DNA from: an uncultured Eubacteriales bacterium
GTDB taxonomy: Bacteria; Bacillota; Clostridia; Oscillospirales; Acutalibacteraceae
NCBI GenBank assembly: GCA_900318495.1
Contig: ONLA01000018.1
Span: forward strand, 1 to 38,753
DNA: 38,753 nt
Reading direction: 5' to 3'
Shown here: piece after piece, positions 1,425 to 15,100 of the stretch
Layout: each line of letters opens with the position of its first letter
Position numbering within the stretch: position 1 is the stretch's first letter
Made by a program: the position numbers and the translations under genes
Notes under the pieces: generated by a model
What the model was told of the DNA's origin: nothing
Seen by the model: the letters and a program-made list of their open reading frames with translations, nothing else
Databases searched by the model: none

Positions 1425-1832
1425 ATGGGCAACAATCAAAAAGTGGAAGATTATATGAAAACTATATACCGCTTGCGCGAAAAAGGTTTGGTTCGCGGAG
1501 CGTACATCGCGCGTGAACTGGGTGTAACAAAGCCGACTGTCTCTGTTTCGCTTAAAGAAATGGAGGAGGCGGGATATCTTACAATCCAACCGGACAGAAC
1601 CGTAATATTAACGCAAAAAGGCGAGGAAATCGCCGAACGGATTGTTGAGCGAAATAAGATAATATTTGATTTGCTCACAAATCTTGGCGTAAACCGTGAA
1701 ACCGCGTATGATGACGCCTGCAATATCGAGCACGGTATCAGCGACGAAACCTTAAACGCGCTTATAAAGCTTCGCGATTATCTTACCTTTATCCGCAAAG
1801 CTCCTTTCGGAAAAACAGAGGAGTCTTTTTGA
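1425..1832 (+). CDS. DtxR/MntR-family metal-dependent transcriptional regulator
   Basis: A 135-residue protein with the DtxR/MntR layout: an N-terminal winged helix (about residues 5-65, with the recognition helix in VTKPTVSVSLKEMEEAGY) and a metal-binding dimerisation domain (about 70-135). It lacks the SH3-like third domain of classical DtxR. Candidate metal ligands by alignment from memory are Asp9, Cys99, Glu102 and His103. The motif ACNIEH matches the iron-type DtxR pattern (Cys at this place) rather than the Glu of Bacillus MntR, and Asn77 replaces the MntR His77, so iron sensing is favoured. It sits behind a consensus promoter and an operator-like dyad, so it probably represses itself. 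The downstream genes to 4168 are likely co-transcribed. Confidence 0.92.
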   Translation: MGNNQKVEDYMKTIYRLREKGLVRGAYIARELGVTKPTVSVSLKEMEEAGYLTIQPDRTVILTQKGEEIAERIVERNKIIFDLLTNLGVNRETAYDDACNIEHGISDETLNALIKLRDYLTFIRKAPFGKTEESF

Positions 1833-1876
1833 TACAGCGGAGTTACCCTAAACTAACTTTTAAAGGAGGAATATAT

Positions 1877-2281
1877 ATGAAACTCAAAAGCCTTATTCCC
1901 GAAATTATTTTACTGATCCTCAGCCTGTTGATTTGCATAGGCTCGTTTACCTTTTTCTCAGCCTGTCCGGTGCACGGCGACACCGTTATGGCTTGTCACT
2001 GGGCGCAAAACGCGGTTACGGCACTCGGAGCGCTTTTGTCGGCAATATCGCTCGCCGCTGTTGTAATTCCGGACAGAAAGCTTAAGGCAGGACTGGAGCT
2101 TTCGGCAACGCTGACCGCAATCTTAACGGCGGTTGTTCCGGGTATTGTAATCAACGTTTGTATGATGAATTCAATGCGCTGTGTAAGCACATTCCGCCCG
2201 TTTACAATTTTGTTTGCGTCGTTAGCGGCGGTAGCCGCCTTATTCGGCGCGATTCTCAATCTAAAAAGAAAAGAGAAGTAA
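1877..2281 (+). CDS. DUF4418 family membrane protein
   Basis: A 134-residue integral membrane protein with about four hydrophobic segments. It has paired extracytoplasmic cysteines in the family's pattern: FSACPVHG then MACHWAQ near the first loop, and VCMMNSMRC between the last segments. The start at 1877 is chosen because AAAGGAGG lies just upstream; an in-frame upstream ATG at 1829 overlaps the previous gene and has no such site. It lies 44 bp after the metal regulator and 1 bp before an FtsX-type permease, so it probably works with that ABC module. The family has no assigned biochemical function that I know of; cysteine-rich loops suggest redox or metal contact, which is inference. Confidence 0.85.
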   Translation: MKLKSLIPEIILLILSLLICIGSFTFFSACPVHGDTVMACHWAQNAVTALGALLSAISLAAVVIPDRKLKAGLELSATLTAILTAVVPGIVINVCMMNSMRCVSTFRPFTILFASLAAVAALFGAILNLKRKEK

Positions 2282-2282
2282 T

Positions 2283-3491
2283 ATGAAGTCAATCAACGGA
2301 TTATCCTTTAGAAATATCATCAAAAAACCTGTCAGAAGCGCTGCGCTGATAATCATCGCGGCGTTTCTCGCGTTTTCGGCGTTCGGAGGCTCTGTAATGG
2401 TTATGAGTCTGTCGGAAGGTCTTAACAGCCTTTCGGCGCGCCTCGGCGCGGATATTGTAGTTGTGCCGTACTCCGCGACCTCGAAGGTCAGCTATGACTC
2501 AATTATTATCCAAGGTCAGCCCGGGCAGTTCTATATGGACTCAAAATATTACGACGAGATCAAGGAAGAAATCAGCGGAATAGAAAAGATAACCGCTCAG
2601 TTTTATCTTGCTTCGGCAAAGGCTTCCTGCTGTTCGTCCAGGCTTCAAATTATCGGCTTTGATCCCGAAACTGACTTTTCGGTTCAGCCGTGGATAGAAA
2701 AAAGCTATTCAGATAAGCTCGGACTTTATGACACCGTAGTCGGAAGCGACGTAACTCCCAACACCGATATGACGGTTGAGATTTACGGAAAAGCCCTGAA
2801 GGTTCAGTCGGTTCTTGATAAAACAGGAACAGAGCTTGACCACGCGATTTATGTTAATACCGATACTATGAAGGAGCTTATCAAGGCTCATAACGAGAAA
2901 AATCCGAATCAGGAGCGCAAGGTTAATCCCGACAACGTTGTTTCCTCGGTTCTGATTAAGGTAAGCGACGGCTTTGATATTGACAGCGTCGCAGGAGATA
3001 TTAATCTGCACGTGCGTCAGGTCAAGGCGGTTCGCACTCAAAATATGATTTCAGGAGTAGCCGACAGCCTTTCGGGCGTATCGGGAATGATAAGCGCGTT
3101 GATGATTGCTGTGTGGGCGTTGTCGGTCATCATAATGGCGATAGCTTTCACAATGATTATGAACGAACGCAAAAAGGAATTTGCCGTTTTGCGTGTGCTC
3201 GGAGCTTCAAGAGCGCGGCTTGCGGGGCTTGTGTTTAAGGAGAACGCCATGCTCACCCTGACGGGGGGAGTCGCGGGCGTATTGCTCACCGTTATGATAA
3301 CCCTGCTGTTTTCACCGCTTATTGAACAAAGCATCGGACTGCCGTTTTTACTGCCCGGCGCTGTTACCCTGTGTATCGCCGGAATAACAACCGTTATTGT
3401 AACGGTCGCTGCAGGCGCGCTGACAGCGGCAATTTCGGCGTTTAAAATCAGCAAGGCAGACGCCGGGGTGATACTGAGAGGTGATAACTGA
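2283..3491 (+). CDS. FtsX/MacB-type ABC transporter permease
   Basis: A 402-residue permease with the MacB/LolC layout: an N-terminal membrane segment (about residues 15-45), a large extracytoplasmic MacB_PCD-like domain (about 45-250), and three C-terminal membrane segments forming the FtsX domain. The coupling region reads ERKKEFAVLRVLGASRARL, typical of this family. The stop codon overlaps the ATG of the following ATPase by one base, so the two form one transporter. Substrate is unknown. Position under a DtxR-type regulator and next to a DUF4418 gene suggests a role in metal homeostasis or cell-envelope export linked to it. Confidence 0.93.
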   Translation: MKSINGLSFRNIIKKPVRSAALIIIAAFLAFSAFGGSVMVMSLSEGLNSLSARLGADIVVVPYSATSKVSYDSIIIQGQPGQFYMDSKYYDEIKEEISGIEKITAQFYLASAKASCCSSRLQIIGFDPETDFSVQPWIEKSYSDKLGLYDTVVGSDVTPNTDMTVEIYGKALKVQSVLDKTGTELDHAIYVNTDTMKELIKAHNEKNPNQERKVNPDNVVSSVLIKVSDGFDIDSVAGDINLHVRQVKAVRTQNMISGVADSLSGVSGMISALMIAVWALSVIIMAIAFTMIMNERKKEFAVLRVLGASRARLAGLVFKENAMLTLTGGVAGVLLTVMITLLFSPLIEQSIGLPFLLPGAVTLCIAGITTVIVTVAAGALTAAISAFKISKADAGVILRGDN

Positions 3492-4168
3492 TGAGGCTTA
3501 AAGCGGAAAAAATCTGTAAAAAATTTAACAGGAAAACAGGCGGAGCAAGCTACTTTTACGCGGTGAACGAAACTGATTTTGAATTAGCCGAAAGCTCTCT
3601 GACCGCTGTATACGGCAGGTCAGGCGGAGGAAAAACAACGTTTCTGAATATGCTCGGCGGTTTGCTTAAACCGTCGGACGGAAAGGTGCTTGTTGACGGT
3701 ACGGATATCTATGCAATGCCTGACAGAGAGCTGTCAAAATTCAGAAATAAAAATATAGGGATTATTCCGCAGGGAAGTACCGCTATTCCTGCTTTGACAG
3801 TGCTCGAAAATGTGATGCTGCCGAGGCTGATGTACAGCAAGCAAGACGATTCTTCGCTCGAATACGCTATGGAGCTGCTCGAAAAAGTCGGCATATCCAA
3901 TCTGAGCGAAGCAATGCCGAACGAGCTGTCGGGCGGCGAGCTCAGAAGAATGGCGATTGCCAGAGCGCTAATGAATAAGCCGTCTGTTTTGCTCGCCGAC
4001 GAACCCACCGGCGACCTCGACGACGAAAACACCGCGCTTGTGCTTTCTCTTTTGAGAGACACCGCAAAAGAAGGAACCTCTGTTTTTATTGTAACTCACG
4101 AGGGCGAAGCGGAAAACTATGCGGATATTGCTTTAAAGATGGACTCGGGAACTCTTAAAAATAAATAA
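3491..4168 (+). CDS. ABC transporter ATPase, LolD/MacB class
   Basis: A 225-residue nucleotide-binding subunit. Walker A is GRSGGGKT (residues 42-49), the signature is LSGGELRR, and Walker B with the catalytic Glu is VLLADEPTGDLD; the switch His is in VTHEGE. The signature lacks the common Gln after SGG (ELRR instead of QQQR), as in some members. It overlaps the permease gene by one base and is followed by a strong terminator, so it closes the first operon (regulator, DUF4418, permease, ATPase). It drives the adjacent FtsX-type permease by ATP binding and hydrolysis at the inner face of the membrane. Confidence 0.95.
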   Translation: MRLKAEKICKKFNRKTGGASYFYAVNETDFELAESSLTAVYGRSGGGKTTFLNMLGGLLKPSDGKVLVDGTDIYAMPDRELSKFRNKNIGIIPQGSTAIPALTVLENVMLPRLMYSKQDDSSLEYAMELLEKVGISNLSEAMPNELSGGELRRMAIARALMNKPSVLLADEPTGDLDDENTALVLSLLRDTAKEGTSVFIVTHEGEAENYADIALKMDSGTLKNK

Positions 4169-4410: not shown

Positions 4411-4434
4411 ATTAGTTAGCTTAGTCTAACTAAT
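4411..4434. promoter_or_regulatory. Operator-like dyad before the FTR1 iron permease
   Basis: ATTAGTTAG-N6-CTAACTAAT is a perfect 24-bp dyad sharing the GTTAG-N6-CTAAC core and spacing with the dyad at 1383-1408. It ends 9 bases before the ribosome binding site of the FTR1 gene. Probable binding site of the DtxR-family regulator, making this operon iron-repressed. Confidence 0.75.
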
Positions 4435-4456
4435 GGAGATTTTGGAGGTGTTATGT

Positions 4457-5911
4457 GTGGCAGCGAAAGCTAAATCACACAAAAAACTTTTTGCGGTGCT
4501 GTTTTTGGCGCTTGTTGTATTTACCGCTGTGTTTCCCGTTCAGGCGTTTGCGGCGGAGGAAACAAAGCATTACGCCACATGGAAGGAAGCTCAGCCCGAG
4601 TATTTTCCCGACAGCGATAAAACCAATATGAACGAGGTAGCCTACGCCATTGAAAAGGTGGTTGCCGCAGGCAGACAAAACCTTGCGGACGGCAATACCG
4701 ACGCGGCTTACAAGTGTGCCCAGGACGCGTACTACGGCTACTACGAGGTATGCGGCTTTGAACGCCAGACCATGGCGCGGATTTCGGGCTCGCGCAAAAA
4801 CGAGGTTGAATTCTATTACCGCGATTTGCGTCAGGCTGTAAAGTCAAATTCGCTTTCGGATTACGACAAGGCTGCAGACAATCTTATGAAGGATTTGTAC
4901 ACCGACGCTCCGCTTTTAAGCAACGTAAGCGACGCGTTTGTGCAAAAATATGTTGAGGACAAGGACTTTGCCGAAAACTACACAAAGCTTACCGGTACGG
5001 TTCTTGCTGAAAGCAACGTAACCGACAACGTAGGCGGAGCCGGAAGCGCGGGCGCGGTATTCGCTCAGGCTTTTGTAATCCTTCTTCGAGAGGGAATAGA
5101 GGCTATTCTTGTTATCGGCGGTATCATTGCCTACCTGATTAAATCGGGTAATAAAAAGCAGGTGCGCGCGGTTTACATCGGTTCCGTATTCGCTATTGCT
5201 CTCAGCTTTGGCGCGGCGATACTTTTAAACATTATCAAGTCGGCAAACGCCACAAACGGCGGCGCTAACCAGGAGCTTATCGAGGGTATTACGGCGTTGA
5301 TCGCGGTTGCCGTTCTGTTCTATGTCAGCAACTGGATGCTGTCAAAATCAGAGTCCGAGGCTTGGCAAAACTACCTTGACAAAAAGGTTGAAACTTCTGT
5401 GTCGCGCGGAAGTATGATTGCTCTCGGCTTTACGGCGTTTCTCGCCGTGTTCCGTGAGGGCGCTGAGGTTATTCTGTTCTATCAGCAAATCATCACCGAC
5501 GCTCAGGAAGGCGACGGCGTGGGCTGGCTTTGGCTCGGCGTTGCGGCAGCGGCTGTTGTGCTTGTCGCAATCTTTATCGCAATCCGGTTCTTCTCGGTTA
5601 AGCTTCCGTTAAAGCTATTCTTCCTCGCTACAAGTATTCTTATGGCTGTTATGGCGATATCGTTCCTCGGAGCAGGCATCAAGGAGCTTATGGAAGGCAG
5701 CTTTGAGCTTGTGCTCAGAATTCAGGGAATTACGCCGCTTGTCGAGCAGATTCCCACAAACGATTTCCTCGATATTTTCGGAATTTATCCGCATACCGAA
5801 ACAATCGTTCCGCAGTTTATCCTGCTGTGCATAACGGTTTACCTGTTTATAAAACAGCACAGGGAAAACAAAAAGCTCAGAGCGCGGTTAGCCGCGAATG
5901 AGAATAAATAA
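4457..5911 (+). CDS. FTR1-family high-affinity iron permease
   Basis: A 484-residue iron permease. It has an N-terminal signal segment (residues about 11-33), an extracytoplasmic helical domain (about 35-195), then seven hydrophobic segments. The two family-defining iron-binding motifs are present: REGIE (Arg211-Glu215) and REGAE (Arg333-Glu337). GTG at 4457 is chosen because GGAGGTG lies 6 bases upstream; the in-frame ATG at 4433 falls inside the operator dyad and has no ribosome binding site. In the related E. coli FetM and Campylobacter systems this protein moves iron through the membrane together with the P19 protein encoded next. It leads an operon that appears to run to 15100. Confidence 0.95.
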   Translation: MAAKAKSHKKLFAVLFLALVVFTAVFPVQAFAAEETKHYATWKEAQPEYFPDSDKTNMNEVAYAIEKVVAAGRQNLADGNTDAAYKCAQDAYYGYYEVCGFERQTMARISGSRKNEVEFYYRDLRQAVKSNSLSDYDKAADNLMKDLYTDAPLLSNVSDAFVQKYVEDKDFAENYTKLTGTVLAESNVTDNVGGAGSAGAVFAQAFVILLREGIEAILVIGGIIAYLIKSGNKKQVRAVYIGSVFAIALSFGAAILLNIIKSANATNGGANQELIEGITALIAVAVLFYVSNWMLSKSESEAWQNYLDKKVETSVSRGSMIALGFTAFLAVFREGAEVILFYQQIITDAQEGDGVGWLWLGVAAAAVVLVAIFIAIRFFSVKLPLKLFFLATSILMAVMAISFLGAGIKELMEGSFELVLRIQGITPLVEQIPTNDFLDIFGIYPHTETIVPQFILLCITVYLFIKQHRENKKLRARLAANENK

Positions 5912-5919
5912 GTTGATTC

Positions 5920-5943
5920 ATACTCAGGCAAACGCCGGAGTAT
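5920..5943 (+). other. Intercistronic hairpin between FTR1 and P19 genes
   Basis: A 10-bp stem with one mismatch (ATACTCAGGC with GCCGGAGTAT) closes a 4-base loop, with no T-run after it. It may set mRNA stability or expression ratio rather than terminate. Confidence 0.5.
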
Positions 5944-5983
5944 TATTCAAAATAATAAATTATATAAAAGGAGTAATGTAAAA

Positions 5984-6658
5984 ATGAAGAAGATTCTTGC
6001 AATCCTCTGCGCCGCTGCAATTGCGGTAACAGCCACAGCAGCTCTTTCGGGCTGCGGCAACAGTTCATCATCAAGCTCATCCTCAAGCGCGTCAAAGGCA
6101 GACTCAAGCGCTGCCGAGACAAAGGCTGAGGAAACCAAGGCAGCCGCTGACGACGCCGCCGCTGATGACGCGGGCTTCACAGAGTATCCTATTTTTGAGG
6201 ATGAAGAGGTTGGATTTATGAACGTTTCCGCCGTATTCTTCCAGGCGGTTCCCATGACAGCAGGCGCTACCGTAAAGGAGCAGAAGGCTGAGGATTACGA
6301 CATTCACCTCGAGGCGGATATCTCGGCTCTTGACAACAAGCTCGGATACGAAAAGGGTTCATGGGTTCCCTACCTCACAGTTGACTACAAGGTAACAGAC
6401 GGCAAGGACGTTAAGGCTGAAGGCACATTTATGGAAATGGCTGCTTCCGACGGTCCCCACTACGGCGCTAACATCAAGCTTCCCGACGCGGGCAAGTATC
6501 AGCTTACAATCACAATTCACAGCCCGGCTGACAACGATTATCTTATCCACAGCGACGCCCTTACAGGCCCCGGCGGCACCTTCGACGATTACTTCAAGAA
6601 CGGCGAGCCCCTCGCAATTACAAAGGATTGGGATTACACCGGTCCTGTTAAGGTATAA
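5984..6658 (+). CDS. P19/Tpd-family periplasmic-type iron-binding lipoprotein
   Basis: A 224-residue lipoprotein with signal peptide and lipobox LSGC (Cys24), a low-complexity Ser/Ala/Glu/Lys linker (about 25-65), and a P19 domain (about 66-224). Family features seen are the M/Q-rich AVFFQAVPM stretch and MAASDGPHYGANIKLP, which contains the conserved Met and His that bind metal in characterised P19 proteins, followed by the GKYQLTITI strand. P19 proteins bind Cu and Fe at the cell surface and feed iron to the adjacent permease. Being a lipoprotein suits a one-membrane cell. AAAGGAG is placed upstream. It lies 72 bp after the FTR1 gene. Confidence 0.93.
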   Translation: MKKILAILCAAAIAVTATAALSGCGNSSSSSSSSSASKADSSAAETKAEETKAAADDAAADDAGFTEYPIFEDEEVGFMNVSAVFFQAVPMTAGATVKEQKAEDYDIHLEADISALDNKLGYEKGSWVPYLTVDYKVTDGKDVKAEGTFMEMAASDGPHYGANIKLPDAGKYQLTITIHSPADNDYLIHSDALTGPGGTFDDYFKNGEPLAITKDWDYTGPVKV

Positions 6659-6688
6659 TTTCCCTCTAATTCCATTATAAACAACCAT

Positions 6689-6725
6689 GGCAGCCTCTTT
6701 TCAGGGGCTGCCAAAAGCCCTTTTT
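6689..6725 (+). terminator. Possible partial terminator after the P19 gene
   Basis: GGCAGCC (6689-6695) pairs with GGCTGCC (6706-6712), followed 8 bases later by TTTTT. The distance to the T-run makes it a weak terminator; it could reduce readthrough so that P19 is made in excess. Confidence 0.45.
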
Positions 6726-6781
6726 GAGAGTTTAGGGTTCAGGCACCGGTTAATTTATTGTGAGCCTTAAACTCTCAAAAA
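6721..6781. repeat. Inverted repeat with 14-bp perfect arms before the DUF2318 gene
   Basis: TTTTTGAGAGTTTA (6721-6734) is mirrored exactly at 6768-6781; pairing continues with two interruptions to about 20 bp. It lies between the P19 gene and the DUF2318 gene and could be a large mRNA hairpin, a terminator or the remains of a small mobile palindrome. Confidence 0.75.
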
Positions 6782-6813
6782 GTGCATATATAAATTTAAT
6801 CAGAGGAATGCAA

Positions 6814-8097
6814 ATGTTAAAGTTTTTTGAACAACTATCGCTCGATTTGATGATACCCGCAATCGTTGCGGCGATGCTTTACGCGTTCGTCAAATTCAAA
6901 TTGAGCAAGCTATGTAATATTGTGTTTTTGGCAGGCGGCGGTCTGACACTCGCGGCTTCGGTTTTTGTCGCGATTCTTAAAAATACAAACCGCGAACTTA
7001 AGCTGCCGTTTTGGAACGGAGTAACATATTATCTGTTAACAGTGCTTGTAATTGCTTCGGCGGTACTGATTATACTGCTGCCGCTTTGGCTCGCGTTAAA
7101 AAAATTCCGCAGGGTAACGGGCGTTATCGCGACAATAGCCGCGGCTGCCGTGGTGTTTACGGTGACGGTAAATTCTTTGCCCGGAGTTTTGGCGTATCCG
7201 TTTAACTTTGATTTGCAGGGCAATTCGGTGTTTTCAACGGAATTTTTATACAGGCTCATCGGCTGGATACTCGGCTTTTTGTTAGTGTTTTTAACAGGTC
7301 TTGCTGCGTTTAAAACGCTTAAATTCGCTTCAAACGCGGTGTCGGTAATCTTTATTGATATCGCCGTGTTTATTTCGGCGTTCAGCGTGCTCGGAAGGCT
7401 TATTCAGCTTATGCTGCAGCTGCAAATTATAAGGCAAACCCGTGACAAGGATTTGTTTAAGCTGCTGTTCCCGGTTTTGCAGTTTGTCAATAATAACGCC
7501 GAGCTGTTTATCTTCTGCGCGCTGGGTTGCGTTTCGGCAGCCGCGGTAATTCAGTTTATCCGCAACCTAAGGGTGCGCGGGGAATATGACAATCCCGCTC
7601 AGCTCAGAAAAATCAGGGCAGCAATGCGCAGCCGCCGCCGCTGGGCGGTAACGGCTATTGTTTGCGTTATCGCTACTGTGCTGAATCTTACGGTTGTTGA
7701 CGCTATAAACAATAAAAAGCCCGTTGAAGCTCCTGTTGAACAGTGCGAAACGGACAGCACTAATATGTACATCGATTTTTCTCAGGTTGACGACGGTCAC
7801 CTGCACCGCTTCGCTTATACCACCGAAAAAGGCACGGAAATCCGCTTTATCGTTATAAAAAAGCCGAACTCAAGCTCATACGGCGTAGGTCTTGACGCCT
7901 GCGATATTTGCGGCGAGGCAGGCTACTTTGAACGCGACGGACAAATTGTCTGCAAGCGCTGCGACGTTGTAATGAATATCAACACCATCGGTTTTAAGGG
8001 CGGCTGCAACCCGATTGTTATTGACTACGAGGTCAGGGACGGCAGAATTATCGTGCCGGTTGAAGGCTTGGTTCTGCACGAGCGCAAGTTTAAATGA
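6814..8097 (+). CDS. DUF2318 family membrane protein with C-terminal CxxC metal/Fe-S motif domain
   Basis: A 427-residue protein with about eight hydrophobic segments in the first 290 residues and a soluble C-terminal domain. That domain carries two CxxC pairs (Cys363/Cys366 in CDIC and Cys380/Cys383 in CKRC) followed by GFKGGCNPI, the DUF2318 signature. The start at 6814 is preceded by AGAGGAAT; a GTG at 6760 lies inside an inverted repeat and is unlikely. DUF2318 genes are part of the P19/FTR1 iron clusters of Campylobacter and E. coli (the Cj1660 position); the cysteines suggest bound metal or iron-sulfur and a redox step during iron delivery. That role is inference. Confidence 0.92.
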   Translation: MLKFFEQLSLDLMIPAIVAAMLYAFVKFKLSKLCNIVFLAGGGLTLAASVFVAILKNTNRELKLPFWNGVTYYLLTVLVIASAVLIILLPLWLALKKFRRVTGVIATIAAAAVVFTVTVNSLPGVLAYPFNFDLQGNSVFSTEFLYRLIGWILGFLLVFLTGLAAFKTLKFASNAVSVIFIDIAVFISAFSVLGRLIQLMLQLQIIRQTRDKDLFKLLFPVLQFVNNNAELFIFCALGCVSAAAVIQFIRNLRVRGEYDNPAQLRKIRAAMRSRRRWAVTAIVCVIATVLNLTVVDAINNKKPVEAPVEQCETDSTNMYIDFSQVDDGHLHRFAYTTEKGTEIRFIVIKKPNSSSYGVGLDACDICGEAGYFERDGQIVCKRCDVVMNINTIGFKGGCNPIVIDYEVRDGRIIVPVEGLVLHERKFK

Positions 8098-8110
8098 TTA
8101 GGAGAAATTT

Positions 8111-9409
8111 ATGTTTTTCAGGATGATAAAAGGAGCGCTGTTCAGGCAAAAATCCAAAATGATTATGATTGCCGTAACAATCGCGCTCGGAGCGTCGCTG
8201 GCAACGGCTATGCTCAACATTATGCTCGATGTAGGGGATAAGGTTAATCAGGAGCTTAAAGCGTACGGAGCGAACATCACCGTTGTTCCGAAGGAAAATT
8301 CAGTGCTTAACGAGCTGTATTCCCTTGACGAGAAGGAAGAAACCGCCGCGGCTCACCTTAAAGAGGATGACCTGGGCAAAATCAAAACAATTTTCTGGGG
8401 CTTTAATATTCTCGACTTTACTCCGTTTGTGAATACATACGCTGAGCTTCCTAACGGTGAAGCCGTTAAGCTGACAGGCACTTGGTTTAACCATCACCTT
8501 GCGCTTAACACAGGCGAGGAGCTTGACGCGGGAATTCACAGCCTTCGTTCCTGGTGGGATGTGAAAAACGGTCAGTGGATTGACGAGCAAAGCGGAAGCG
8601 GCGGTGAAAATCCCGCTATGGTCGGTGTTGCCCTCGCGGAAAAGCTCGGCGTCAGCACCGGAGACAAGCTTGAGGTCAAAACCTCAAAGGGAAGTAAAGC
8701 TCTTGTCATTACAGGCGTTTATGACGCAGGCGGCGATGAGGACGAGCAGATTTTTACCACGCTCAAAACCGCTCAGGAGCTTTCGGACACTAAGGGCTTA
8801 ATCGACAGCATCGAGGTCAGCGCCCTGACAACTCCCGACAACGAGCTTGCACGAAAAGCTGCTACAAAAGGACCTGCCTCGCTTTCTCCGGCGGATTACG
8901 AAACCTGGTACTGCACGGCTTATGTAAGCTCGATCTGCTACCAAATTCAGGAGGCGATTCCCGATTCGGTTGCTTCACCCGTACGGCAGGTTGCCGAATC
9001 CGAGGGAACTATCCTTGACAAAACCCAGCTTTTGATGATTTTGATAACAATACTCAGCCTGTTCGGCTCCGCTCTGGGAATTTCAAACCTTGTAACCGCG
9101 AGTGTAATGGAGCGCAGCAATGAAATAGGCTTGTTAAAGGCAATCGGAGCGCGCGACAACCGCATTTCGGGCATCGTGCTTACCGAAATTATAATCACTG
9201 CTGTTGCCGGCGGCGTTGCGGGCTACTTTATGGGCTACGGCTTCGCTCAGATAATCGGTCATACCGTGTTCAACTCGGCTATAGAAATGAAGCCGATGGT
9301 TATCCCGGTTGTAGCGGTTTTGATTATAATTGTAACGCTTTTGGGAAGTATTCCCGCAATACGTATGCTGCTTAGACTCCGCCCTGCGGAAGTATTGCAC
9401 GGACGTTAA
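8111..9409 (+). CDS. FtsX-type ABC permease of the P19 iron cluster, first copy
   Basis: A 432-residue permease: N-terminal membrane segment (about 15-38), a large extracytoplasmic domain, and three C-terminal membrane segments. The coupling stretch is MERSNEIGLLKAIGARDNRI. It starts 13 bases after the DUF2318 gene with AGGAGA upstream and is followed 13 bases later by a second permease, matching the paired permeases Cj1661 and Cj1662 of the Campylobacter P19 locus. The two probably form a heterodimer driven by the ATPase at 10607. Work on the related systems suggests that this module supports iron uptake rather than drug export; its exact cargo is not established. Confidence 0.92.
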   Translation: MFFRMIKGALFRQKSKMIMIAVTIALGASLATAMLNIMLDVGDKVNQELKAYGANITVVPKENSVLNELYSLDEKEETAAAHLKEDDLGKIKTIFWGFNILDFTPFVNTYAELPNGEAVKLTGTWFNHHLALNTGEELDAGIHSLRSWWDVKNGQWIDEQSGSGGENPAMVGVALAEKLGVSTGDKLEVKTSKGSKALVITGVYDAGGDEDEQIFTTLKTAQELSDTKGLIDSIEVSALTTPDNELARKAATKGPASLSPADYETWYCTAYVSSICYQIQEAIPDSVASPVRQVAESEGTILDKTQLLMILITILSLFGSALGISNLVTASVMERSNEIGLLKAIGARDNRISGIVLTEIIITAVAGGVAGYFMGYGFAQIIGHTVFNSAIEMKPMVIPVVAVLIIIVTLLGSIPAIRMLLRLRPAEVLHGR

Positions 9410-9422
9410 GGGAGGTAAAGTA

Positions 9423-10592
9423 ATGAAAAGACAAACAATGTTTTTGAAAATGATTACCGCATCTCTTTTAAGGCGGCGTTCGCGTATGCTGGTTGCGCTT
9501 CTCGCAATCGCGGTAGGAGCGACAATTCTTTCGGGACTTGTAACGATTTATTATGACGTTCCGCGCCAGATGGGCGAGCAGTTCAGAAACTACGGAGCGA
9601 ATATGATCTTCACGCCGTCGGGCAGCGATAAGCTCAGCACGGACGCAATCAACAAGGCAAAGGGCATTATTGACGGCAAGGAGCTTGTAGGCACGGCTCC
9701 GTACAGATATGAAAACATAACCGTTTATGAACGTCCGCTTATGGCGGCGGCAACCGATTTTGACGGCGCCGAAAAAACCAGTCCGTACTGGCGTATTGAC
9801 GGCGAATGGCCTGCAAAAAGCGGTGAGGCTCTTGTGGGAAAAGAAACCGCCGCAACGCTCGATTTAAGGGCAGGCGATACAGTAACGCTTGTGTACGACC
9901 TTGAAGGTCAGACGTCCGGGACAAAGCCGTCGAAAAAAACAGAGAGAAATCAGAACAGCCTCGAATTCAGGGTGACCGGCGTTCTCGACACAGGCGGCAA
10001 TGAGGAAAAGTACATATTTATTTCCATAGCCGATATGGAATCGTTGACCGGCAAGTCCGATATTTTCGATATGACCGAGCTCAGCGTTTCGGCTTCTCAG
10101 GAACAGCTTTCGGACTATGCCGAAAAAATATCATCCGGGGTTGACGGACTATCGGCACGCCTTGTAAAGCGCGTTACGCAGTCCGAAAACACAGTGCTCT
10201 CAAAGCTTCAGGCGCTTGTGCTGCTTGTAACGATAATTGTTCTGCTGCTGACTATGATTTGCGTTGCCACAACAATGATGGCGGTAGTTACCGAACGCCG
10301 TAAGGAAGTGGGACTTCGCAAGGCGCTTGGCGCTTCAAACAGGAGTATTATATTTGAGTTTATGGGCGAGGGCTTGCTTTTGGGCGCGATAGGCGGACTG
10401 CTTGGTTCAATTTTCGGCTTTATCTTTGCTCAGGCAGTCAGCATAAACGTATTCAACAGCTCAATTCAGTTCCACTGGGTTTTAATCCCGGTAACATTAC
10501 TTGTGTCGGTGCTGGTAACGGGAATATCCTGTGTGCTTCCGGTAAGAAGCGCTACGGACGTGGATCCTGCTCTGGTGCTTAAGGGCGAATGA
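9423..10592 (+). CDS. FtsX-type ABC permease of the P19 iron cluster, second copy
   Basis: A 389-residue paralogue of the preceding permease, with the same topology (one N-terminal and three C-terminal membrane segments around an extracytoplasmic domain). The coupling stretch is TERRKEVGLRKALGASNRSI. GGGAGGTAAAG lies just before the ATG. Both copies begin their outer domain with a similar motif (YGANITVVP in the first, YGANMIFTP here), supporting a duplication followed by divergence into a heterodimeric pair. Confidence 0.92.
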   Translation: MKRQTMFLKMITASLLRRRSRMLVALLAIAVGATILSGLVTIYYDVPRQMGEQFRNYGANMIFTPSGSDKLSTDAINKAKGIIDGKELVGTAPYRYENITVYERPLMAAATDFDGAEKTSPYWRIDGEWPAKSGEALVGKETAATLDLRAGDTVTLVYDLEGQTSGTKPSKKTERNQNSLEFRVTGVLDTGGNEEKYIFISIADMESLTGKSDIFDMTELSVSASQEQLSDYAEKISSGVDGLSARLVKRVTQSENTVLSKLQALVLLVTIIVLLLTMICVATTMMAVVTERRKEVGLRKALGASNRSIIFEFMGEGLLLGAIGGLLGSIFGFIFAQAVSINVFNSSIQFHWVLIPVTLLVSVLVTGISCVLPVRSATDVDPALVLKGE

Positions 10593-10606
10593 TAAAGGAG
10601 AATTAT

Positions 10607-11281
10607 ATGAGTCTTTTGGAAATAAAAAACGTATCAAAAATCTACGGTCCGCTAAAGGCGCTTGACGGGGTTAACCTGACGGTTGAAAACGGCGAGTGGC
10701 TGGCAATTATGGGGCCTTCAGGCTCGGGAAAGTCAACAATGATGAATATTATCGGCTGTATGGATAAGCCCTCTTTGGGCGAGGTAATACTCGACGGCGC
10801 AGACATCGCCAAGGAAAGCGGCAAAAAGCTTACCGAAATCCGCAGGGATAAAATCGGACTTATTTTTCAGCAGTTCCATCTTATCAACTACCTTACGGCT
10901 GTGGAAAATGTTATGGTGTCGCAGTATTACCACAGTATGCCCGACGAAAAAGAGGCTATGGAGGCGCTTGAACGAGTTGGACTTGCTGAACGCGCAAAGC
11001 ATTTGCCCAGCCAGCTTTCGGGCGGCGAGCAGCAGCGCGTGTGCATTGCGAGAGCGCTGATAAATCACCCCGAAATTGTGCTTGCCGACGAGCCTACGGG
11101 TAACCTTGACGAGGCCAACGAGAATATTGTAATCGACATTTTCAAGCAGCTCCACCGTCAGGGCACAACGCTGATTGTAGTTACCCACGACCCCGAGGTT
11201 GCCGAGGTTGCTCAGAGAACCGTTGTGCTCGAGCACGGCAGGCTTGTAAAGGAAATTATAAACGAAAATTTTGAGGAGTAA
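10607..11281 (+). CDS. ABC transporter ATPase of the P19 iron cluster
   Basis: A 224-residue MacB/LolD-class nucleotide-binding subunit with Walker A GPSGSGKST (residues 36-44), the Q-loop QQFHLI, signature LSGGEQQRV and Walker B LADEPTGNLD, and switch His in VTHDPE. ATG 10607 is preferred over the in-frame ATG at 10589 because AAAGGAG precedes it at normal spacing; the earlier ATG overlaps the permease stop. It corresponds to Cj1663 of the Campylobacter locus and energises the two upstream permeases. Confidence 0.95.
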   Translation: MSLLEIKNVSKIYGPLKALDGVNLTVENGEWLAIMGPSGSGKSTMMNIIGCMDKPSLGEVILDGADIAKESGKKLTEIRRDKIGLIFQQFHLINYLTAVENVMVSQYYHSMPDEKEAMEALERVGLAERAKHLPSQLSGGEQQRVCIARALINHPEIVLADEPTGNLDEANENIVIDIFKQLHRQGTTLIVVTHDPEVAEVAQRTVVLEHGRLVKEIINENFEE

Positions 11282-11285
11282 TTTT

Positions 11286-11726
11286 ATGAAAAAGCTAACT
11301 GCAATTTTGATGTGCGCGTTAATGCTCGGAACGGCTTTGTGCGGCTGCGGCGGCAAAAAAACATATAAGGACGGCACATATACCGGAAAAAGCGCGGTTT
11401 TCTCAGGCGATGAGGAAGGTAACGGCAACGGCTACGGCGAGGTAACAATCACCGTCAAGGACAACGCCGTAACCGCCTGCGAGTTCAAAACCTATGAGGA
11501 AAACGGAACCCTGAAGGGTGAGGACTACGGTATGGTTGACGGCGAGATTAAAAATCAGGATTACTACAACAAGGCGCAAAAGGCTATCAAGGGCAGCGAG
11601 CAATACGCCAAGGAGATTATAGGAAAAATCAACCCGGAAGAGGTTGACAGCATTTCCGGAGCGACATATTCGCACAATCAGTTTGTCGAGGCGGTTTACG
11701 ACGCCCTTGACAAAGCGGCTGAATAA
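11286..11726 (+). CDS. FMN-binding domain lipoprotein
   Basis: A 146-residue lipoprotein with signal peptide and lipobox LCGC (Cys21), then one FMN-binding domain. The motif D121-SISGAT-127 matches the ApbE flavinylation pattern D-x-x-S/T-G-A-T, so FMN is predicted to be attached covalently to Thr127 on the outer face of the membrane. Ribosome binding site GAGGAG overlaps the end of the ATPase gene, so it belongs to the same operon. In Campylobacter the corresponding place holds thioredoxin-like genes; here an extracytoplasmic flavoprotein stands instead, suggesting one-electron transfer to or from iron. No apbE gene is seen in the window. Confidence 0.92.
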   Translation: MKKLTAILMCALMLGTALCGCGGKKTYKDGTYTGKSAVFSGDEEGNGNGYGEVTITVKDNAVTACEFKTYEENGTLKGEDYGMVDGEIKNQDYYNKAQKAIKGSEQYAKEIIGKINPEEVDSISGATYSHNQFVEAVYDALDKAAE

Positions 11727-11737
11727 TAATATTATGT

Positions 11738-11770
11738 AAACGGCAGTCAGTTATTAACTCCCTGCCGTTT
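11738..11770 (+). terminator. Possible attenuating hairpin after the FMN-binding gene
   Basis: A perfect 9-bp stem AAACGGCAG / CTGCCGTTT with a 15-base loop is followed by GCCTGTTTTGG. The T-run is short, so partial readthrough into the next gene is likely. Confidence 0.5.
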
Positions 11771-11788
11771 GCCTGTTTTGGTGAATTT

Positions 11789-12295
11789 ATGAAAACTGTA
11801 TTTAGATTTGCTATGCGGCTTTTGTCCGTTGTTGTTGCCGGAGCTGTAATAATTTGTTTGCTCACGGCAGGCGGATATATTAACCTTAACAGCGATTCCC
11901 CCGACGCTGTGTCCTCGGCTACCGCGCAGTCGGTTTCCGCCGAAGATATGGAGGGAAAATGGGTTGTGCTTATCAACCGCGGTCTTCACGATAAATCGGG
12001 CACAACCGCCGACTGGCAAAAGTTTTTTTCTTTTTCCGGCAACGTCCCTCTTATTATGGAGGACATTATCTGCAAGGTCGCCGAGGGCGATTCAAGCGGA
12101 CTTGATACCGCGAAAAAATATCAGGCGCGTCTGCCTGAAAATCAAATGAAAATCGTACAGGAAGCCGGCACTATGCTTGTTTCAAAGGCTGAGCTTACGC
12201 GCTTTGATGTTATTATTCTGAGCGAAGCCGCGGCAAAAGCCTGCGGCGCGCACACCCTGTATGACAGAAATGATATTTTGACTATAAAAATGTAG
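11789..12295 (+). CDS. Unrecognised membrane-anchored extracytoplasmic protein
   Basis: A 168-residue protein I do not recognise. It has an N-terminal hydrophobic anchor (about residues 7-30), a Ser/Ala-rich linker, then a soluble domain of about 115 residues with the stretches KWVVLINRGLHD, MEDIICKVAEGD, ARLPENQMKIV and RFDVIILSEAA. It has only two cysteines (one in IICKV, one in KACGAH) and no recognisable cofactor motif. It sits between the FMN-binding lipoprotein and a cytochrome-b-like membrane protein, 8 bp before the latter, which suggests a structural or electron-transfer partner of the reductase module. The upstream ribosome binding site is weak (GGTGA). Confidence 0.75.
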   Translation: MKTVFRFAMRLLSVVVAGAVIICLLTAGGYINLNSDSPDAVSSATAQSVSAEDMEGKWVVLINRGLHDKSGTTADWQKFFSFSGNVPLIMEDIICKVAEGDSSGLDTAKKYQARLPENQMKIVQEAGTMLVSKAELTRFDVIILSEAAAKACGAHTLYDRNDILTIKM

Positions 12296-12303
12296 AGGCT
12301 TTT

Positions 12304-12840
12304 ATGAGGAAAATCAACGGAATAATCGCAATGCTTGTGCTTGTGCTGTTTGTAATTCACGGCTTGCTCGGAGCGCTTAATTTAATGAATATCGCGACGG
12401 TTATCATCAAGGCGCTGTCGCATACAATGCTTTCGCTGATTATAGTTCACGCTGTTATCAGCATAGCGCTTACGGTGCGCTCACTCAGAACAGCGGTAAA
12501 GACAAAAGCTCCGTATTTCAGGCATAACCGCCTGTTTTGGGCGAGAAGAATCAGCGGAGCTTTAATTTCGGCGCTTGTGTTTTTTCATATGACGGCGTTC
12601 GGCTATACCTCGGGCGGAGTTTTCCGCTTGGTTCCGTTTGATGCTTTCCGCCTGACAACGCAAATATTATTCATACTCAGCATTGCCGTCCACATTATCA
12701 CAAACGTCAAGCCCGCGCTCATCACCTTCGGCGTTAAAAGACTCCGCCCGAAGGCAGGGGACATTTTGTTCTTCGTTTCCGTTGCTATGCTGTTTATGAC
12801 GGCAGGCTTTATAATTTATTACATAAGGTGGCAGCTATGA
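12304..12840 (+). CDS. Small multi-helix membrane protein, probable heme or quinone-site anchor of the FrdA/B-like enzyme
   Basis: A 178-residue integral membrane protein with about five hydrophobic segments. Histidines sit within or at the ends of the segments: IHGLLG (His19), LSHTML (His40), IVHAVI (His49), FFHMTA and IAVHIITN. This resembles the spacing of heme-ligating helices in fumarate reductase/succinate dehydrogenase anchors, but overall similarity to a named family cannot be claimed from reading alone. Its stop overlaps the ATG of the FrdA-like gene (ATGA), so the three are translationally coupled. It likely anchors the flavoprotein and iron-sulfur subunits at the membrane. Confidence 0.8.
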   Translation: MRKINGIIAMLVLVLFVIHGLLGALNLMNIATVIIKALSHTMLSLIIVHAVISIALTVRSLRTAVKTKAPYFRHNRLFWARRISGALISALVFFHMTAFGYTSGGVFRLVPFDAFRLTTQILFILSIAVHIITNVKPALITFGVKRLRPKAGDILFFVSVAMLFMTAGFIIYYIRWQL

Positions 12841-14393
12841 GAATAAATATTATCGGCGCAGGGCTTGCCGGGCTTTCAGCGGCGCTCACGCTTGCCGAAA
12901 ACGGAGTAAAGTCAAATTTAATTTCATCTATGCAGTCCGAACGCGCTCAGTCGGTTATGGCAGAGGGCGGAATAAACGCCTGTCTGAACACAATGGGCGA
13001 GGACGACTCTGTGGAAAACCATATTGAAGACACTATCCGCGGAGGAGTAAATCTCGCCGATAAAAGCGCTGTTCGCGGACTTTGTGAAAATGCGCCGGAA
13101 ATAGTAAAAAAATTATATAACCTCGGCGTTCCGTTTCAAACAAACGAAAACGGAATCGTACAGCGAAATTTCGGCGGACAAAAGAAAAAACGCACCGCTT
13201 TTGTAAAAAGCAGTACGGGAAAAATGCTGATGACGGCGCTGATTGACGCTGTACGCCGGTATGAGGCGGAGGGTGTGATTAAGCGTTATCCGTATCACGC
13301 GCTTCAACAGCTTCATATCCGTGATAACAGATGTCAGGGCGTAACCGCAGCCGACCTACATACCGGGGAAAGCATAACCTTTCGCGGAAGCGTAATCCTT
13401 GCATCGGGCGGTATGAACGGCTTGTTCAGCGGACTCACAACCGGCACTACGCAAAATACCGCGGACGTTACCGCGATGTGCCTTGAAAACGGAGTTGAGC
13501 TTGCCAACCTTGAGTTTATCCAGTACCACCCCACAACTATCGCGATTCCCGGAAAGCGCCTGCTCATAAGCGAGGCGGCAAGGGGAGAGGGCGGCAGGCT
13601 GTTTGTTGGCAGAAACGGCAAGCCGTGGTACTTTATGGAGGAAAAATACCCAGAGCTTAAAAACCTTATGCCGCGCGACGTTGTTTCCGCGGAAATTGTT
13701 GAAGTGACATCAATGCCCGAGTGTGAAAATCAGGTTTATCTTGATATGACAGGGATTGATAAAAAGGTTTGGAAAAGCCGACTTTCCGACCTGCGCGAGC
13801 AGGTTATTCACTATCTTGCGCTCGACCCTGTGAAAAAGCCTGTTCCCGTATCGCCCGGCATTCACTATTTTATGGGCGGAATTTGGGTTGATTCCGAACA
13901 CCGTACCTCAGCGGAAAAGCTGTACGCCGCAGGAGAGTGCGCCTGTCAGTATCACGGCGCTAACCGCTTGGGAGGCAACTCGCTTTTAGGCGCGGTTTAC
14001 GGCGGGAAAGTTGCCGCAATGACAGTTATAAAAGAATACGGTGAACCGGAAGCTTTGCCGGAAATAAAAGGTGTTAAGTCTTATTCAGAGGTTTCTCCGG
14101 CTTTCAGAGATTCGGTCGGTCAGGTGCTCGGCAATCACTTGAAAATCCTGCGCAGCGAGGATGACCTTATGCGTGCTTTGGACGAACTGAACTCAATTCA
14201 GGAAAAAGCCGCAAATCCTGCCGAAAACCGTTTGATTAATCTCGCGAAAGCGACTGTGAACTGCGCGTTATTCCGCAAAGAGAGCCGCGGCGCTCACAGA
14301 CGGACGGATTATCCCGGCACAAATCCAGGCTGCCAAAAGCAGACAATAGTTAAAAATACAAAGGTGTTTTACAGAGAAATTAATCAGCTATGA
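12837..14393 (+). CDS. Fumarate reductase/succinate dehydrogenase flavoprotein-like subunit
   Basis: A 518-residue FAD protein of the FrdA/SdhA/NadB family. Seen are the dinucleotide-binding GAGLAGLSAA (residues 7-16), the FAD-contact MAEGGINA, the active-site regions FIQYHPTT, SEAARGEGG and MPRDVVSAEI, and GIHYFMGGI then GANRLGGNSLLGAVYGG. The histidine that carries covalent FAD in FrdA/SdhA (in RSHTVAAEGG) is Gln38 here (RAQSVMAEGG), so FAD is predicted non-covalent. The helical C-terminal domain ends soon after SRGAHRRTDYP, shorter than usual. It is followed by an FrdB-like subunit with a 4-base overlap. It could reduce fumarate or another acceptor, or donate electrons to the iron system; substrate is unproven. 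Confidence 0.93.
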   Translation: MRINIIGAGLAGLSAALTLAENGVKSNLISSMQSERAQSVMAEGGINACLNTMGEDDSVENHIEDTIRGGVNLADKSAVRGLCENAPEIVKKLYNLGVPFQTNENGIVQRNFGGQKKKRTAFVKSSTGKMLMTALIDAVRRYEAEGVIKRYPYHALQQLHIRDNRCQGVTAADLHTGESITFRGSVILASGGMNGLFSGLTTGTTQNTADVTAMCLENGVELANLEFIQYHPTTIAIPGKRLLISEAARGEGGRLFVGRNGKPWYFMEEKYPELKNLMPRDVVSAEIVEVTSMPECENQVYLDMTGIDKKVWKSRLSDLREQVIHYLALDPVKKPVPVSPGIHYFMGGIWVDSEHRTSAEKLYAAGECACQYHGANRLGGNSLLGAVYGGKVAAMTVIKEYGEPEALPEIKGVKSYSEVSPAFRDSVGQVLGNHLKILRSEDDLMRALDELNSIQEKAANPAENRLINLAKATVNCALFRKESRGAHRRTDYPGTNPGCQKQTIVKNTKVFYREINQL

Positions 14394-15100
14394 AACTTAC
14401 AGTAGAAATTTTACGGCGGAAGGACAGCGCTTCCGAGCCGTACAGACAAATAATTGAATTTGAAGCCCTGCCCGACGACACCGTCGCGACGCTGCTCAAT
14501 AAAATGAACGCGAGCGTTGACCTAAAGGATATAAACGGAAATCCTGTAGGAATCATTCATTGGGAGTGCAGCTGCCTGCAAAAGAAGTGCGGAGCATGCG
14601 CAATGCGAATAAACGGAAGTCCCGCTCTTGCCTGCGATACAAAGCTGAGTACCTGCAAGAATGGTAAATTAAGCTTAGAGCCGCTGAGAAAATTCCCGAC
14701 AGTTCGTGATTTGATTGTTGACCGCAGTTTGATGATGAATAATCTCAGATTAATCCACAACTGGCTGGAGCAGTCTGCCCATCATACGGAAAAGGCGGCG
14801 GATTTAAGCTATGACGCGTCGCGTTGCCTGCAGTGCGGCTGCTGCCTCGAGGTTTGTCCTAATTTTATGCCCGGCGGCGATTTTTACGGAGCGGCGGCTT
14901 TTGTGCCTGCGTCAAGAATTTTATCGCAGCTTGAAAAGAGCAATCCGCAGGAGTTGACCGCTCTATATCAAAAGAACATTTATAACGGCTGCGGCAAATC
15001 GCTTTCCTGCCATAACATTTGTCCGGCAGGCATCGACGTTGAACACAAGCTGTCGAACGCCAACGCCGTAGCGGTATGGAAAAGGTTTTTCGGTAATTAA
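14390..15100 (+). CDS. Fumarate reductase/succinate dehydrogenase iron-sulfur-like subunit
   Basis: A 236-residue protein with the FrdB/SdhB layout. The N-terminal ferredoxin domain has 2Fe-2S ligands Cys62, Cys67, Cys70 and Cys82. The C-terminal domain has a 4Fe-4S motif (Cys146, Cys149, Cys152, Cys156-Pro) and the remaining cluster ligands Cys201, Cys207, Cys211-Pro with the same x5/x3 spacing as E. coli SdhB. All cluster ligands are therefore intact. It overlaps the flavoprotein gene by 4 bases and ends the operon before a bidirectional terminator. It would pass electrons between the flavin and the membrane anchor encoded at 12304. Confidence 0.94.
   Translation: MKLTVEILRRKDSASEPYRQIIEFEALPDDTVATLLNKMNASVDLKDINGNPVGIIHWECSCLQKKCGACAMRINGSPALACDTKLSTCKNGKLSLEPLRKFPTVRDLIVDRSLMMNNLRLIHNWLEQSAHHTEKAADLSYDASRCLQCGCCLEVCPNFMPGGDFYGAAAFVPASRILSQLEKSNPQELTALYQKNIYNGCGKSLSCHNICPAGIDVEHKLSNANAVAVWKRFFGN

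Follow-up and report, generated by a model that had tools for sequence, protein, structure and literature searches.

The P19 iron importers of Campylobacter jejuni (FetMP-FetABCDEF) and of Gram-positive bacteria share their first six genes, whose order did not vary among the 33 species examined, according to the available part of a comparative study (PMC6083913). The same text gives the seventh gene as a predicted flavin mononucleotide (FMN)-binding protein in Actinobacteria, Firmicutes, Spirochaetes and Synergistetes. We analyzed a related locus in a stretch of 38,753 bases (contig ONLA01000018.1 of an uncultured Eubacteriales bacterium, hereafter the window), which is one entire contig of a draft genome of 1.88 Mb in 81 contigs that is 86% complete. 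The locus has the gene order FTR1-P19-DUF2318-FtsX-FtsX-ATPase-FMN_bind and thus shares the first six genes, and FMN_bind as the seventh, with the Gram-positive clusters, to the extent that the accessible literature describes them. However, it continues with four additional genes, for two open reading frames (ORF168 and ORF178) and for FrdA and FrdB, here called the module. This extension of the P19 importer is real, recurrent and undescribed in the literature searched: the accessible portions of the publications on P19 clusters, which do not cover their supplementary lists of clusters, contain no mention of ORF168, of a cytochrome b anchor, of FrdA, of FrdB or of their combination. The initial annotation had taken the composition as a whole to be novel. 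Of this claim, the last four genes remain, whereas FMN_bind in place of thioredoxin had already been reported in the parts seen of PMC6083913 and PMC8238504. The genes of the importer and of its extension are the following.

4457 to 5911, forward strand: FTR1-family iron permease, FetM/FtrC-like (PF03239; two REGxE motifs; listed reading frame from 4433)
5984 to 6658, forward strand: P19 (FetP/FtrA) iron-binding lipoprotein (PF10634, 154 bits)
6814 to 8097, forward strand: DUF2318/FtrD-like membrane protein, FetA-like (PF10080; Cys motif; listed reading frame from 6760)
8111 to 9409, forward strand: FtsX/MacB-type permease, FetB-like (FtsX and MacB_PCD)
9423 to 10592, forward strand: FtsX/MacB-type permease, FetC-like (FtsX and MacB_PCD)
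10607 to 11281, forward strand: ATP-binding cassette (ABC) ATPase, FetD-like (ABC_tran; listed reading frame from 10589)
11286 to 11726, forward strand: FMN_bind lipoprotein with the flavinylation motif DSISGAT (PF04205)
11789 to 12295, forward strand: ORF168, membrane-anchored DUF6921-related protein with the flavinylation-like motif DAVSSAT, proposed adaptor
12304 to 12840, forward strand: ORF178, putative five-helix, four-histidine cytochrome b-type anchor of the complex II kind (FrdC-like)
12837 to 14393, forward strand: FrdA-like flavoprotein, dicarboxylate-site motifs kept, His that links flavin adenine dinucleotide (FAD) replaced by Gln (FAD_binding_2, Succ_DH_flav_C)
14390 to 15100, forward strand: FrdB-like iron-sulfur subunit with Cys sets for a 2Fe-2S, a 4Fe-4S and a third cluster (Fer2_3)

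The gene order and Pfam assignments given in the initial annotation for 4411-15100 were confirmed: all reading frames are open as placed, and the motifs REGxE and DSISGAT as well as the ATGA overlaps at ORF178/FrdA and FrdA/FrdB were read in the DNA. REGxE motifs are expected in FTR1. The Cys motif of DUF2318 reads CxxC-x13-CxxC-x14-C, the expected form being CxxC-x13-CxxC-x14,15-C in the available text of PMC6083913. Two genomes have tandem duplicate P19 genes, L157 (G925) and L126 (G521), which may be an assembly error. P19 (FtrA), FTR1 (FtrC) and an FtrD-like protein are also shared with FtrABCD of Bordetella and Brucella, in which the cupredoxin FtrB is a candidate ferroxidase, whereas no cupredoxin family was found in the cluster genes of the window that were scanned. 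According to the accessible part of PMC11966278, Fe2+ is the only form of iron used by FtrABCD, and the FTR1-type permease of this system is predicted to exploit the energy of Fe2+ oxidation.

Five ORF178 sequences, three of them from P19 clusters, served as queries against named genomes and retrieved 129 relatives, of which the best 80 were used. Because the remaining 49 of the 129 lie outside this set, the sample is biased towards the kind of locus found in the window. The closest relatives of the window in the named genome collection are uncultured Clostridia and (partly rumen) Ruminococcus; the host is a rumen-type, anaerobic gut bacterium. Altogether, 42 of the 80 loci lie beside genes of the P19 block, 32 of them with FTR1 or P19 and 10 with DUF2318 or FMN_bind before the contig ends. 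Another 17 loci are located beside a P1B ATPase, 14 beside neither partner (with at least 6.5 kb upstream seen), and 7 were too short. The arrangement of P19 block and module is not due to chance, and the co-occurrence search proposed with the initial annotation did not find the downstream genes mostly apart from P19. In the P19-linked loci the gaps between the genes are short, and the partner order varies, with the module either downstream of the P19 block or upstream of it (L044, L047). The latter order probably also applies to L034: another contig of its genome opens with FrdB ahead of FTR1, so that the separation is probably a contig break.

Other loci are split at different points. In L025 and L030, both close kin of the window, ORF168 still follows FMN_bind and ORF178-FrdA-FrdB are relocated; the ORF168 match in the L030 genome holds one stop. 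In L036, L041, L045 and L050 the split separates ORF168 from FMN_bind. P19 was found elsewhere in the genome for 7 of the 14 loci beside neither partner (L034 and the six split loci just named) and was not found for the other 7. For the 7 short loci, P19 was present in 2 genomes and not in 5; the contig of L023, close kin of the window, starts at ORF178. The presence of ORF168 agreed with that of P19 in 19 of 20 genomes, both being present in 9 and neither in 10 (with one partial 25-bit hit taken as absent), and ORF168 occurred alone, at a contig end, in the remaining one (one-sided Fisher test, 6e-5, uncorrected for kinship). Since this agreement includes genomes with separated genes, a linkage of ORF168 and P19 that would reach beyond adjacency is supported. 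In an unrooted FrdA tree of 84 rows, built with a quick method, the 16 P1B-linked rows form one starred clade. The stand-alone copies are scattered among the P19-linked ones, as is expected of later separation. Module copies in records labelled Flexilinea, Chloroflexi and Anaerolineaceae (L035, L069 and L084) fall inside the Clostridia FrdA tree, and P19 is present in two of the three; they would represent transfer between phyla, unless they are binning errors.

FrdA and FrdB clearly align with known enzymes. FrdA is alignable with SDHA and FrdA of complex II, and its regions QYHPT, EAARGEGG, PRD, HYFMGG and ANRLGGNS, which presumably contain the residues acting in catalysis, are conserved with few changes. 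At the place of the FAD-linking His, Gln is present in all 86 rows with letters (one more row has a gap; the row counts for FrdA, FrdB and ORF178 include near-copies), which departs from the covalent FAD of type B complex II. Homologues with noncovalent FAD reduce fumarate only and do not oxidise succinate, as reported in the available part of PMC9557727. On the basis of this noncovalent kind of FAD site, fumarate reduction is the likelier reaction of FrdA, and therefore electrons would run inward. FrdB has 11 conserved Cys, 4 of which are present in all 85 rows and the other 7 in all 84 rows with letters, and shares the three Cys sets with type B enzymes. Like the type B complexes (Wolinella quinol:fumarate reductase, Chloroflexus SdhCAB and Bacillus-type SdhCAB), the window encodes FrdA, FrdB and a five-helix, four-His anchor, the similarity being strong for FrdA and FrdB and weak, in both fold and sequence, for the anchor. 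It differs from them by the Gln in place of the FAD His, by the short anchor (178 amino acids), by the lack of menB and mqnA/D over the cut-off in the 50 host genomes searched and by extracytosolic flavin neighbours. A second complex II in the same genome was considered and rejected: the only other FrdA homologue found (34% identity) precedes a nadC-like gene and is NadB by sequence reading.

The hosts of the module appear not to make menaquinone by either of the known routes, because neither menB nor mqnA/D, the only families searched, was found over the cut-off in any of the 50 genomes searched, all of which encode the module or its P1B-type counterpart (7 others were left out). Weaker matches occurred in 19 genomes for menB and in 2 for mqnA/D. 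In the control genomes the families passed the cut-off in 7 of 14 and 4 of 14 cases, respectively.

ORF178 looks like the cytochrome b-like membrane anchor of FrdA and FrdB, to judge from its relatives and its predicted fold. ORF178 itself has no Pfam match; among 56 relatives, 13 match Sdh_cyt (E down to 5e-5), and three other families are each matched by at most 4. The ORF178 profile matches SdhC of M. smegmatis (E 8.7e-4). An AlphaFold model built from 56 sequences contains five membrane helices (predicted local distance difference test, pLDDT, 92.9), and Foldseek ranks the complex II anchor of Chloroflexus, 9lay_C, first (template-modelling score, TM-score, 0.62; E 0.012). The further matches are mostly complex II anchors as well (5xmj_C, 0.55, and 2bs4_C, 0.54, both with E > 1), with a cytochrome b561 at rank 3. 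All 89 rows have His at positions 19, 49, 95 and 130. In type B anchors, the haem ligands are located on the first four helices, and the placement of the four His in ORF178 matches this pattern, as all of them are on the first four helices. ORF178 thus resembles the type B anchors in its five predicted helices and four candidate haem ligands, and would bind haem. The histidine-containing membrane protein noted earlier is present, with four invariant His, and looks like a complex II cytochrome b; with a haem-type anchor and FrdAB, the downstream genes stand as a candidate transmembrane electron path, as had been proposed. A DUF4405/FezC cytochrome had first been suspected from the fourth helix. 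These cytochromes are likewise conserved-His membrane proteins linked to flavinylated proteins and iron; however, DUF4405 has six helices in the accessible text of PMC10979944, whereas ORF178 has five predicted ones, no DUF4405 hit and Sdh_cyt matches among its relatives, and the candidate was rejected.

Two extracytosolic proteins would connect this anchor to the importer. The FMN lipoprotein fits the motif D-x-x-[ST]-G-A-[ST], and the genome holds one ApbE, so that its flavinylation is predicted; an ApbE gene adjoining the cluster was rejected, as the gene sits on another contig. The genome encodes two FMN_bind proteins, the cluster lipoprotein and RnfG, in addition to an rnfCDGEAB set (Rnf names from sequence reading). 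ORF168, previously described as an unrecognised anchored protein, is indeed anchored, and in addition carries a flavinylation-like motif and has a homologue of solved structure. Its predicted structure comprises a membrane helix (residues 2-27), a flexible linker that contains DAVSSAT and an alpha/beta domain (pLDDT 88.5). Across 52 loci of the P19-type group the motif has D in 50, A in 48, [ST] in 48, A at the sixth place in 52 and the final [ST] in 52, but Gly at the fifth place in only 15. The solved homologue is 3NOH (RUMGNA_00914 of R. gnavus), found with E 7.7e-13 by the profile and 2.5e-40 by a P1B-type member; it was deposited as a putative peptide-binding protein, and the P1B-type ORF168 aligns with it from VTGAT on. 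DUF6921 is matched by 7 of 52 ORF168 relatives, and a literature search on this family found no paper. A simple solute-binding protein was considered and rejected, although the fold resembles part of such proteins and SBP_bac_5 is matched by 2 of 52 members: because a conserved motif follows its membrane helix, and in view of its partners, ORF168 fits an electron carrier better. It may still bind a solute ligand.

The region upstream of FTR1 and the boundary between P19 block and module contain the following features.

1385 to 1406, no strand: palindrome ATAGTTAGCCGAGGCTAACTAT upstream of the DtxR-family gene, with 2 mismatches to the FTR1 palindrome
1425 to 1832, forward strand: DtxR-family iron-dependent repressor, probable regulator (PF01325 and PF02742)
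1871 to 4168, forward strand: companion set of DUF4418, FtsX permease and ABC ATPase (PF14387, FtsX, ABC_tran)
4412 to 4433, no strand: perfect palindrome TTAGTTAGCTTAGTCTAACTAA, candidate DtxR-type operator of the FTR1 operon
11736 to 11772, no strand: hairpin at the boundary of P19 block and fumarate reductase module, possible attenuator

DUF4418 or its FtsX was present in 28 of the 32 relatives with FTR1 or P19, upstream or downstream of the main block, and the companion set is therefore counted as part of the cluster. Thus, the extent drawn in the initial annotation has to be enlarged by the DtxR gene and the DUF4418 set (1425-4168), and two starts are revised: FTR1 more likely begins with the GTG at 4457, downstream of a GGAGG, and FrdA begins at 12837. 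With up to 2 mismatches, the palindrome occurs at 5 sites in the genome, compared to 0 for the reversed control; within the window, there are 3 matches with up to 3 mismatches versus 0.06 expected. Four sites lie upstream of the FTR1 operon, the DtxR gene, a feoA-feoA-feoB cluster and a DUF3793-flavodoxin pair (FeoB and DUF3793 by Pfam, the others by sequence reading), and the fifth is flanked by an aldo/keto reductase gene and a ferredoxin-like one. The palindrome resembles DtxR boxes. The first four places fit the iron regulon of a DtxR-type repressor. These candidate operators suggest that the FTR1 operon may be under iron control. The 32 P19-linked relatives contain 18 sites with at least 13 of 16 positions, compared to 1.6 in shuffled sequences; conservation of the operator across the relatives was rejected, as only 9 of the 32 loci have a site near FTR1, three of the 32 lacking the region before FTR1. 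In the locus L043:8493-12830, DUF3793 and flavodoxin genes are headed by a palindrome of this type that matches at 14 of 16 positions, and are followed by a stand-alone ORF178-FrdA-FrdB. The hairpin at 11736-11772, which the initial annotation placed at 11738-11770 and named as a possible end of transcription, folds as predicted but was not among the terminator-like sites in a terminator scan of the region. Co-transcription of P19 block and module is possible, and separate expression is likewise possible. At the beginning of the window, positions 1-1059 encode a heavy-metal P-type ATPase truncated by the contig end, and 1118-1360 is a short reading frame that matches only the end of ATC_hydrolase (PF14196).

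Gene content, linkage, motifs, candidate ligands, the candidate operator and the lack of menB and mqnA/D over the cut-off lead to a reading to which we give an even chance, namely that the module is a quinone-independent relative of complex II joined to a putatively iron-regulated P19 importer, with electrons flowing inward to fumarate. Coupled to iron, it would most likely draw electrons from outside the cell while iron is imported, such as those of Fe(II) on its way from P19 to FTR1. The proteins would have to contact each other so that electrons pass from the outside flavin of the FMN lipoprotein to ORF168, and further via the haems of ORF178 to FrdB and FrdA, where cytosolic fumarate would be reduced to succinate. 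An anaerobe needs an oxidant other than oxygen, and fumarate, a by-product of arginine and purine synthesis, would take this role. ORF178-FrdA-FrdB, with noncovalent FAD, would not need a self-made quinone. A more specific version is rather doubtful: Fe(II) at P19 would be oxidised anaerobically for FTR1 via the two flavin proteins and the dihaem cytochrome to fumarate, replacing the oxygen or peroxide of ferroxidase-permease pairs.

Several observations weigh against inward flow from a P19-coupled module. The feasibility of inward flow would depend on the Fe(II)/Fe(III) potential that prevails at P19, and quinones may be scavenged from neighbours. The Foldseek matches of ORF178 are weak (best E 0.012, none at E 0.001), and 6 of its 56 relatives match TMD0_ABC. 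The fifth place of the ORF168 motif is Gly in 15 of 52 loci of the P19-type group and Ser in 29 of 52, including the window, and this Ser may lower or prevent flavinylation. According to the accessible part of PMC12052999, the ApbE motif is D-x-x-[ST]-G-A-[ST], a change of Gly to Ala leaves about 50% flavinylation, and RnfD carries covalent FMN. The probable RnfD of the window's genome (L162:4165-5112, by sequence reading) has DAASSAT, with Ser for Gly as in ORF168, and therefore the exchange need not be fatal. In G904, a genome with separated genes, the ORF168 match holds a stop. A promoter-like TTGACA-17-TATTAT is located at 11707-11735 upstream of ORF168 (24 such sites in the region versus 17.9 expected). 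Hairpins that differ in sequence are found repeatedly between FMN_bind and ORF168, and 8 of 12 loci reach -18 kcal/mol or lower over 75 bases that may extend into ORF168, a count made without a shuffled control. P19 is mostly found without the module: in an order sample 4 of 147 genomes have P19, 3 of these 4 with the module, and in a phylum sample (P19 in 17 of 398) the module was found in 0 of the 16 other P19 genomes within the stretches fetched, one of which was 10 kb long and two of which (L121, L136) have an incomplete-looking P19 block. An association of the module with every P19 cluster was accordingly rejected. Because ORF178-FrdA-FrdB stands alone in genomes in which neither P19 nor ORF168 was found, it can apparently work without these partners. 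Finally, of 12 genomes with P1B-linked loci that were searched, 2 have P19, in clusters without the module, and the host genomes are for the most part metagenome-assembled.

Both directions of electron flow had been considered at the outset. In the outward direction, FrdAB and the haem-type anchor would pass cytosolic electrons to the FMN lipoprotein, and Fe(III) would be reduced before import. The candidate cofactor path for this is complete, and published proposals agree with it: in the parts available, PMC8238504 suggests for the FMN protein of P19 clusters a possible redox role similar to that of other assimilatory iron reductases, and FetE and FetF, although likely oxidases, relay reducing power in the model of PMC10783030. 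However, the FAD-linking His is missing from FrdA, and homologues of this kind reportedly cannot oxidise succinate; nor did the Pfam scan recognise a subunit that oxidises reduced nicotinamide adenine dinucleotide among the cluster genes. Outward flow is therefore unlikely, succinate-driven Fe(III) reduction being disfavoured by the lost FAD His, and the inward direction to fumarate is favoured. We judge it similarly unlikely that ORF178-FrdA-FrdB merely serves succinate-forming gut bacteria as an ordinary fumarate reductase and lies next to P19 by inheritance, with no electron exchange with iron uptake. In favour of this view, the dicarboxylate site is kept, stand-alone copies exist where no P19 was found in the genome (L037, L043, L046, L054, L056), and the hairpin and the promoter-like site lie between the two halves of the cluster. 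Against this stand the agreement of ORF168 with P19 in 19 of 20 genomes, the occurrence of the module on either side of the P19 block, the scatter of stand-alone copies among the P19-linked ones in the FrdA tree, and the finding of menB or mqnA/D over the cut-off in 0 of 50 genomes.

That ORF168-ORF178-FrdAB might be a general redox partner of metal transport, serving P1B ATPases as well, is improbable. It would account for the 17 of 80 loci in which a P1B ATPase and an ORF168 homologue precede ORF178-FrdA-FrdB, the ATPase itself being preceded by an ArsR-type gene in 12 of these loci; the ATPase of L076, the only one tested, belongs to the cadmium family. However, the P1B group is a separate clade, and 16 of its 17 loci are near-copies across families, so that it may reflect one event. 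These loci (L076:6451-12785, L077, L079-L083, L085-L087, L090 and L093-L097) have the motif D-A-V/I-T-G-A/V-T, are about 90-100% identical across several Firmicutes families and were probably moved horizontally. In the ORF168 motif, all 17 loci of the group (L078 included, L081 too short) have Gly, and 14 of them have Ala at the sixth place. A more divergent P1B-type module, with only the ATPase end matching, is present in L068 (Ruminococcus flavefaciens SAb67).

If the inward reading is true, a complex II would have been remodelled to discharge electrons from metal import without the help of quinone. It would also show a way in which an FTR1-type permease could be driven in strict anaerobes, where oxygen is absent.

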